Part shown: positions 38,951 through 47,185 of the stretch, piece after piece
Layout of the letters: each line of letters starts with the position of its first letter
How positions within the stretch are numbered: the first letter of the stretch is position 1
Assembly (NCBI GenBank): GCA_030729385.1
Contig: JANQXM010000051.1
Span: forward strand, 1-64,000
DNA length: 64,000 nucleotides
Direction: 5' to 3'
Source: Opitutales bacterium
GTDB lineage: Bacteria; Verrucomicrobiota; Verrucomicrobiia; Opitutales; Coraliomargaritaceae
Translations under genes and position numbers: made by a program
The notes under the pieces: model-generated
The model's input: the letters and a program-made list of their open reading frames with translations, nothing else
Databases searched by the model: none
Told to the model about the DNA's origin: nothing

Positions 38951-39757
38951 TTACTCTTGTGCCAGCTCCAGCGAGCGGGCTTTCGCAGCAGCGAGTGCTT
39001 TATCGACGAGTCCGCGAAGGTCGCCTTCTTGAAAGACTTTAAGTGCGGCTGCGGTGGTGCCTCCTGGAGAGGTCACGGCGTCACGTAGATCTTCCGGTGC
39101 ACTTTCGCTGTCCGCGAGTAGCATGGCTGATCCGAGTAAGGTGTCGATGGCGAGGGATTCTGCCAGTCCTTCGTCGAGCCCGCAGTTGATGCCGGCCTCA
39201 CGTAGTGCGGCGACAAATTCAAAGACATAAGCAGGACCGCTGCCGCTGAGTGCGGTTACCGCATCGAGGTCGGATTCGTCCACCTCGTGGAAATTGCCCA
39301 ATGAACTGAGGGTGTTTTCAACGATGCCAAAATCTTTCTCGGTGAGCCCGCGTAGTGGCGCAAATGCGGTGACGCCTGCTCCGATTTGACCGGGCGTGTT
39401 GGGCATGGTCCGAACAATGTTACGGGCTTTGGCGAATTTCTCGCTGAGTCTCGCGAGTGGTGTGCCGGCGAGGATGGAGAGCACAAGCTTGCCGGTGGCG
39501 GCGTCGGCGAGCGTGGTATCGATCGCGTTAAATTGCTGTGGCTTGCAGGCGAGTACGACGGCTTCGGCTTCGTAAAGCGCGTTGGTGATGTCGGCAAAAT
39601 AGTGGATGCCAGTCTCTTCTGCAAGCGTGGGGCCAGTCGGATCGTCGCCGCAGGTGCAGGCGATTTCTTCAGGTAGGTAATGCTCTTTATCAAGCAAGCC
39701 GCGAACGATGGCGGAAGCCATGCGCCCTGCACCTATAAAAACAATGCGAATACTCAT
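38951..39757 (-). CDS. proC: Pyrroline-5-carboxylate reductase
   Basis: A 268-residue enzyme that catalyses the last step of proline synthesis with NAD(P)H. The N-terminal dinucleotide-binding segment is IRIVFIGAGRMASAIVRGLL, followed by VVLACKPQQF, VRTMPNTPGQIGAGVTAF and ALSGSGPAYVFEFVAAL. DLRDAVTSPGGTTAAALKVF is the PROSITE-type signature near the end. Length is standard. It lies 10 bp downstream of the receiver/half-kinase gene on the same strand. Confidence 0.96.
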   Translation of the reverse strand: MSIRIVFIGAGRMASAIVRGLLDKEHYLPEEIACTCGDDPTGPTLAEETGIHYFADITNALYEAEAVVLACKPQQFNAIDTTLADAATGKLVLSILAGTPLARLSEKFAKARNIVRTMPNTPGQIGAGVTAFAPLRGLTEKDFGIVENTLSSLGNFHEVDESDLDAVTALSGSGPAYVFEFVAALREAGINCGLDEGLAESLAIDTLLGSAMLLADSESAPEDLRDAVTSPGGTTAAALKVFQEGDLRGLVDKALAAAKARSLELAQE

Positions 39758-39767
39758 ATTGGATTCC

Positions 39768-40388
39768 TTAAAGGGGATGGGTCATTGTGGCAGTGCAGCC
39801 ACCGTCGGGATTTTCGATCAAACGAATTTCACCTTCTAGATTGCGCATGGTGTGGCGCGCGATGGTGAGCCCCATACCTCGACCTACGGAGGTCTTGGTG
39901 GTGATGAATGGCTCGAACAAAGTGTCGGTTACCTCGGGGTCGATTCCAGTGCCTTGATCAACGACTTTCACTTCTAAGACACTAGGACCTTTTTCGCGGA
40001 ACATTTCCTGTAGGCGAAGCTGCGTGCGCACACGCGCGATCGTCTCGTCGAGGTCGATCGGCTTGGTGATGTAGTCGACAGCACCGGCATCTAGACCTTC
40101 CAGTTTGCCTTCTTTAGAGGCTTTGGCGGTGATGAAGATGATCGGAATTGTTTCCGTCTCAGGGTTTGCCTTCAGATGTTGACAAGTCTCGATGCCGTCC
40201 ATTTCGGGCATCATGATATCGAGCAAAATAAGATCGGGTTTCGCCTCGCCTACGATGTTGAGGCACTCGCGACCATTGTAGGCGACAAATACTTCCATCC
40301 CTTGCCGCTCTAACTTGCGTTGCAAGAGCTTAATGTTGATGGGTTGGTCGTCGACGACCAGGATTTTGGGCTTGGGTTTTGTGCTCAA
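39768..40388 (-). CDS. Receiver domain fused to the C-terminal half of a histidine-kinase ATPase domain
   Basis: A 206-residue protein. Residues 7-125 are a complete response-regulator receiver: ILVVDDQ (Asp13, Asp14), phosphoacceptor Asp57 in LILLDIMMPEMDG, FITAKASKEG (Thr87) and the conserved Lys109. From about 138 the sequence jumps straight into the late part of a HATPase_c domain: G1 box DQGTGI (144-149), F box LFEPFITTK (157-165) and G2 box GRGMGL (169-174). The dimerisation/phosphotransfer helix with its His and the N box are absent. Hybrid REC-HisKA-HATPase proteins are common, so an in-frame internal deletion is the simplest explanation. The start is a TTG at 40388; no ATG is available. 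Confidence 0.8.
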   Translation of the reverse strand: MSTKPKPKILVVDDQPINIKLLQRKLERQGMEVFVAYNGRECLNIVGEAKPDLILLDIMMPEMDGIETCQHLKANPETETIPIIFITAKASKEGKLEGLDAGAVDYITKPIDLDETIARVRTQLRLQEMFREKGPSVLEVKVVDQGTGIDPEVTDTLFEPFITTKTSVGRGMGLTIARHTMRNLEGEIRLIENPDGGCTATMTHPL

Positions 40389-40520: not shown

Positions 40521-41171
40521 TTACTCTTTGGGGTGTGAGAGACGCTCGTCGATTACGGCTGTGCGGCTGAGTAAGTCATGCACGAGTTGACGGCGTTTAT
40601 TGAAAAAGAGGCTGCACATGCCGACTAAGATACTGACGGGGAAGAGTAGGAAGATGGTCGTGGTTTTCAGTCCTGCGCGCACGATGCCCGTGAAAAAAGG
40701 TGCTGTGCCGAGGCTGATTGTGCTGACTGTGCGAACGCAGCATAGTCGTTTGCCGAGAGAGCTGCCTGCGTAAAAGGTTTCGCCGATGGCAAAGTAGATC
40801 CAGAAAATAAAGAACTGTAAGTTTTGTGCGTAGCCGAGCGCTTCAATCAGCGAGCGACTCATTTCTGGTGCTGCTGGTTTTTCTCCTGCGATTTGTAGCC
40901 AAGCTGTGAATGCATCCACCCATGCGGTAAACTCGTGAAACGCGCCGGGGTGGTTCTGAGGAATCGCAAATTTCCAAATCAGGAGCATCGACACAGCGGT
41001 GAGGAGCACGAAGTCGAGGAGGAAGGCGATCCCGCGGATACCGAGACCAGCGGCCGGCATGGGGCCACCTTGTTGGAAGATCGAGTCCAGCACGTTGGCT
41101 GGCTTGAGTGGCGGCGGCAAATCAGAGCGCCGCTCTGGCTTGAGCGGTTCGTTATGTTTGGGTTCTTCCAT
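40521..41171 (-). CDS. RDD-family membrane protein
   Basis: A 216-residue protein with a hydrophilic N-terminus (about 1-40) and several membrane spans (GIAFLLDFVLLTAVSMLLIW, FFIFWIYFAIGETFYAGSSLGK, TIFLLFPVSILVGMCSLFF). The first span contains R-G-I-A-F-L-L-D, the RDD-type start. GKRLCCVRTV resembles the family's conserved loop, and RRQLVHDLLSRTAVI is the C-terminal hallmark. RDD proteins are of largely unknown function; some act in ion homeostasis. It is 5 bp downstream of folD on the same strand. Confidence 0.82.
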   Translation of the reverse strand: MEEPKHNEPLKPERRSDLPPPLKPANVLDSIFQQGGPMPAAGLGIRGIAFLLDFVLLTAVSMLLIWKFAIPQNHPGAFHEFTAWVDAFTAWLQIAGEKPAAPEMSRSLIEALGYAQNLQFFIFWIYFAIGETFYAGSSLGKRLCCVRTVSTISLGTAPFFTGIVRAGLKTTTIFLLFPVSILVGMCSLFFNKRRQLVHDLLSRTAVIDERLSHPKE

Positions 41172-46394: not shown

Positions 46395-46438
46395 AAAGTT
46401 AGAATCGACCCCGCGCGGATTCTCGCAATGCTCGTGTC

Positions 46439-47185
46439 ATGCGATTCATCAGTTTGAGCGTCATCATGTCATTGCTCGTCGGTAGCACTGCGTTCGGACA
46501 ACTCGCTACCACGGAGATAGAATCAGCGTCGCGGGTAGAGACTTTTGTCGCTTGGTTGCTTGAAGACGAGGCACCTTTACAGGTCGTGTCGTTTGCGGAG
46601 GTTGTGCGTGCCACTTCGGGTTGCTCGGTGCTTCCCGTTAATGCCGAAGACCCTGTCGATGCGGCCATGCTTGCAGCCTTAGGAAGCCCCATGGATCAAA
46701 CTTTTGTAACATTGGCTTAGGCGGAACATCCGATTCATCAAGTGGGTCGAGTGAATGAAATCAGTCGCCACGTGGAGGACACCTTAATCAAAGCACTGGA
46801 TGCTATGGAGGGGCTGACTTGCGGCGTGCCTGTCAATGCATTGGGCGATCTTCAGCGCTCGGGTTATCCGGATATCCGACTGCTGTATGAGGCTTCCGGA
46901 CGTATCTTTTACATCGACCCTAAAGTCTATAAAGCGGGCAGTGAGACGAGTAGCTTTCGCACTTTCTATTTCGAGCCACAGCGTAGCACTAATAAAATAA
47001 CCGAAGATGCCAGCCACTTAATCGTTGGTGTTTCCCATCAAGGTCGCATGGGAGATCGCTGGCTATTGCAGTCTTGGCGCGTGGTGGACTTGATTGATTT
47101 CAAAGTTCGCCTAAAGGCAGAGTTTCAAGCCAGCAACCGCGACCTCTATCATGCGGGCGCTATCATTTTGAAAAAGGAAGACTGA
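46439..47185 (+). pseudogene. Exported PD-(D/E)XK nuclease-like gene interrupted by an in-frame TAG
   Basis: One reading frame of 249 codons is interrupted only by TAG at 46718-46720. The first 93 codons encode a signal-peptide-like start (LSVIMSLLVGSTAFGQ, about 7-22) and a helical segment. The frame continues without shift into 154 further codons (AEHPIHQ, VNEISRHVEDTLIKAL). These end in a domain with SGYPDIRLLYEASGRIFYIDPKVYK. The P-D...D-x-K spacing and flanking strands resemble a PD-(D/E)XK nuclease core, though this match is weak. A single nonsense mutation or a sequencing error is the simplest reading; recoding is possible but unsupported. The gene is bracketed by two REP-like inverted pairs. 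Confidence 0.7.

Follow-up and report, generated by a model that had tools for sequence, protein, structure and literature searches.

A receiver joined to part of a HATPase domain

The window, by which we mean the whole 64,000-nucleotide stretch of the Opitutales contig that was analysed, carries between proC and a gene for an RDD-family-like membrane protein a short reading frame whose product joins a response-regulator receiver to the C-terminal part of a HATPase_c domain. The gene, its features and its two neighbours are as follows.

38951..39757, reverse strand: proC, lying downstream of the gene; it is full length and aligns collinearly and without gaps to both congeners (87% and 85% identity)
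39768..40388, reverse strand: truncated REC-HATPase gene with a TTG start and 206 codons before its stop; orthologous, at the same locus, to a REC-HisKA-HATPase gene for 370 aa
39774..39989, reverse strand: C-terminal part of HATPase_c, residues 134-205 (Pfam PF02518, E 1.3e-12)
39870..39884, reverse strand: G2 box GRGMG, G169-G173, from the translation; G169, G171 and G173 invariant in 28 sequences
39906..39917, reverse strand: F box FEPF, F158-F161, from the translation; F158, P160 and F161 invariant in 28 sequences
39945..39959, reverse strand: G1 box DQGTG, D144-G148, from the translation; D144, G146 and G148 invariant in 28 sequences
40029..40364, reverse strand: receiver domain, residues 9-120 (Pfam PF00072 Response_reg, E 1.6e-33, and invariant columns)
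40218..40220, reverse strand: codon for Asp57, where phosphorylation is expected, from its place in the translation; invariant in 28 sequences
40521..41171, reverse strand: RDD-family-like membrane protein, the upstream neighbour, named from sequence and position; both congeners have an orthologue at the corresponding position

A reading of the sequence alone had described this protein as an intact receiver with Asp57, followed by G1, F and G2 boxes with no dimerisation helix, phospho-His or N box, and our profile searches bear that description out. The Pfam match to the receiver is nearly whole, covering positions 1-110 of the 111 in the Response_reg profile, and the pocket residues D13, D14, D57, T87 and K109 are all present and invariant in 28 aligned sequences; the acidic pocket, the phosphoryl-accepting Asp, the Thr and the Lys of a complete receiver are in place. 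The HATPase_c match spans only positions 35-108 of 111, which leaves out the part of the profile that holds the N box, and the same search of the 206-aa protein returned no match to HisKA. The dimerisation and phospho-His domain of a functional REC-HisKA-HATPase kinase is absent, with both dimerisation helices and the phospho-His itself, and the Bergerat ATPase is incomplete. In an AlphaFold model (28 sequences) the receiver is predicted with confidence, and what is left of the ATPase domain forms three strands and a single helix; its lid is poorly predicted, with pLDDT below 50 at residues 166-170. Judged from established histidine-kinase biochemistry, the 206-aa protein should not be a kinase; its receiver may stay phosphorylatable but would be unable to drive kinase output.

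Full-length orthologues at the same locus

The order folD, RDD gene, kinase gene, proC is common to the two congeners (G001 and G002) and to an Opitutia bacterium (L009), and in all three the kinase gene encodes 370 aa. These orthologues have a HisKA match at about residues 152-206 and a HATPase_c match that starts at profile position 7 or 8, and their sequences read GIAHNLNNLLG at the phospho-His motif and NAWES at the N box. In its full-length form the protein is a soluble kinase whose input domain is a receiver. Against the two congeners, the window protein aligns without gaps over residues 1-132 and again over the final 73-74 residues. Between these two blocks it lacks 164 residues. The receivers are about 88-89% identical. 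With the locus shared and the sequence collinear outside the gap, the window gene is by descent an orthologue of the REC-HisKA-HATPase gene. The 370-aa proteins have the locus, the neighbours, the context of the TTG start, the G1, F and G2 boxes and the C-terminal end in common with it; they differ in keeping the middle 164 codons, which hold the dimerisation helices, GIAHNLNNLLG and NAWES.

The sequence-only reading had proposed comparing the locus upstream of proC in related genomes, and that comparison showed a full-length gene in both congeners, as in all the remaining matches at order level. A family search gave a match in 29 of 44 genomes, and an order-level sample in 80 of 223; among these 80 only the window copy is short, all the others having an open frame of at least 367 aa. 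One apparent second short orthologue from the family search, a 256-aa frame in genome G035, was rejected as an internal deletion; the frame (1450-2217) runs to the end of a locus of 2218 bases (L103), which is a contig edge.

Two further features of this kinase family emerged from the same comparisons. A REC-HisKA-HATPase gene has been kept beside proC across many families of the order (L089, L095, L009 and others), and the phospho-His region of this proC-adjacent kinase is unusually invariant, reading GIAHNLNNLLGVVVGY.

The missing segment and its junction

Relative to the congeners the missing segment is exactly 164 codons (492 bp; 370 versus 206 aa), within the 150-200 codons estimated beforehand from the window alone. 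It codes for the linker behind the receiver, then the two dimerisation helices together with the phospho-His, and after them the opening third of the ATPase domain, N box included. The segment was not found elsewhere in the 2.59-Mb genome, where nothing closer turned up than distant kinases at 17-25% identity, and the idea that it had been relocated as an exon-like segment was rejected on the same result.

The junction, placed by alignment to the congeners and other relatives, falls within the stretch of about 39970-40000 that the sequence-only reading had named:

39991..39998, reverse strand: deletion junction CGCGAAAA

In the window this region reads TTC CGC GAA AAA GGT CCT, and the junction word of the short allele is CGCGAAAAAGGTCCT. 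At the left break point relatives have TTY CGC GAA AAY; at the right one the form typical of the family is CGC GAN AAN GGN CC. The window thus retains one copy of CGCGAAAA at its junction, and one relative (L100, which has the same sequence as L009) carries the identical 8-mer at both break points; three others (L090, L096 and L107) share 5-6 bp of it there. In the two congeners the right-hand site has diverged and the 8-bp repeat is lacking there. As a background for these genes, 0.04% of positions show a match of at least 8 within 12 nt at an offset of 492 bp. The likely route is thus a deletion between short direct repeats, with the ancestral right-hand site reconstructed from the window's own junction and from more distant relatives. 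The 492-bp segment would then have dropped out when two such repeats (approximately CGCGAAAA) recombined illegitimately or when replication slipped from one to the other, and a repeat-to-repeat deletion of this kind would have kept the reading frame.

The clean frame had been offered as an argument for retention after any deletion, and here the sequence-only reading is on weaker ground. A deletion has one chance in three of being in frame, and where the repeat copies lie in one codon register, as they do here, the frame is preserved automatically, with no need for selection. Moreover, freedom from decay would fit a recent event just as well.

Selection on the remnant and the age of the probable deletion

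The C-terminal remnant shows no decay. We examined it with a codon model written for the purpose (19 sequences, fixed topology and fixed relative branch lengths), in which omega for the remnant is 0.054 on the window branch versus 0.089 overall, a neutral window branch is rejected with 2 delta lnL of 127, and the likelihood profile disfavours by about 2 lnL units any neutral share above roughly 3% of that branch; between these genomes synonymous sites are close to saturated, which makes all of these figures approximate. Pairwise comparisons agree, in that the window remnant is 67-84% identical to its relatives, whereas the congeners reach 63-67% against the same outgroups. This signal fits recency, functional retention or artefact equally. 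With the N box gone and the remnant undecayed, however, the deletion is most simply explained as a recent event on the window branch, recent by comparison with the split from the congeners; if the remnant is now neutral, we infer that the event was very recent.

We favour, as the probable explanation, a recent, real, in-frame loss-of-function deletion in a conserved gene for a soluble REC-HisKA-HATPase protein that lies between the RDD-family gene and proC. The origin in a full-length gene of this kind, which the sequence-only reading had offered as one of two options, is supported by the syntenic orthologues and the 164-codon loss; the conservation of those orthologues and of the gene order, together with the absence of truncation in the other aligned genes of the block and an in-frame stop in a second gene 6 kb away, likewise supports a deletion. 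As for its consequences, the intact receiver probably still accepts a phosphoryl group on Asp57 from an upstream kinase or a small phosphodonor. Lacking the phospho-His, the dimerisation helices and the N box, the protein would neither bind Mg-ATP properly nor autophosphorylate, and kinase output would be lost. The short product would then act at most as a phosphate sink, and perhaps a weak one.

The short form is known from one assembly only, a draft of 73 contigs, and its remnant is undecayed, all of which would also agree with a gene that is full length in the organism, whether because the contig joins its two halves wrongly or because a minority deletion variant or a chimeric read was taken into the consensus. 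We regard such an artefact as unlikely. With de Bruijn assemblers, two repeats ordinarily collapse only when they have in common a word of roughly k-mer length or more, far beyond 8 bp, and 8 bp is the most that relatives have in common at the break points; moreover, proC, folD, the RDD gene and further conserved genes of the aligned block have no comparable gap relative to the congeners. The shortness of the repeat and the ungapped neighbours thus make an ordinary collapse unlikely, although a mixed population or a chimeric join may still lie behind the short form; the lost segment was found on no other contig. Even less probable, in our judgement, is a minimal protein of a receiver and half a HATPase domain that has been retained for a new function, for example as a binding module that combines the receiver with the G1/F/G2 half-sheet and is controlled by phosphorylation, or as a dominant-negative partner of another kinase. 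The open frame, the preserved TTG start and context, and the strong purifying selection on both parts along the window branch would suit such a protein. However, the deletion may be younger than most of the branch over which selection was measured, the short form occurs in no other genome searched, and the remnant has neither N box nor dimerisation helices and a poorly modelled ATP-lid region. The most specific form of this idea, a fixed regulator in which phosphorylation of the receiver controls the half-ATPase domain as a binding surface, would amount to a new minimal two-component architecture, and we consider it very improbable. This was the other option of the sequence-only reading; it has no positive support, and no second example of a receiver with half a HATPase domain was found in the genomes searched (the family and order samples).

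Relation to known signalling proteins

An N-terminal receiver with a C-terminal HisKA-HATPase is a recognised arrangement, counted in a census of two-component proteins (PMC5847659). The window protein shares with those regulators the N-terminal receiver and the C-terminal homology to HATPase_c, but lacks HisKA and has an incomplete HATPase_c. Nonenzymatic or incomplete histidine-kinase-like proteins have also been described, namely proteins with HisKA and no HATPase (PMC5847659). Like these, the window protein is a partial kinase unable, by its domain content, to autophosphorylate; unlike them, it has lost HisKA and part of HATPase rather than keeping HisKA and losing HATPase, and it is a single instance. 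A search of the literature found no described family that combines a receiver with the G1-F-G2 half of HATPase_c, and no degenerate histidine kinases built in this way. Should the remnant be inert, the protein would behave as little else than a lone receiver of the single-domain (CheY-like) kind, from which it differs in carrying a 73-residue HATPase remnant and in having originated by deletion within a hybrid kinase.

On present evidence, the gene most likely represents ordinary gene erosion of a known kind, and not a new architecture or class of signalling protein. If the deletion is real, it would illustrate how a conserved hybrid kinase can be reduced, by an internal loss between tiny repeats that keeps the frame, to a protein resembling a lone receiver. 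It also carries a caution, which is that an odd domain architecture met once in a draft genome should be compared with its syntenic orthologues first.

A second disrupted gene lies 6 kb from the truncated kinase gene, at 46403-47182 on the forward strand, with an in-frame TAG at 46718-46720. A Pfam search assigned it to no family. It is homologous to a single 250-aa frame in one congener (G001), and the 152 codons past the TAG are still 68% identical to that frame. The genome from which the window comes is 2.59 Mb, versus about 3.2 and 3.5 Mb for the congeners, which is in line with possible gene loss.
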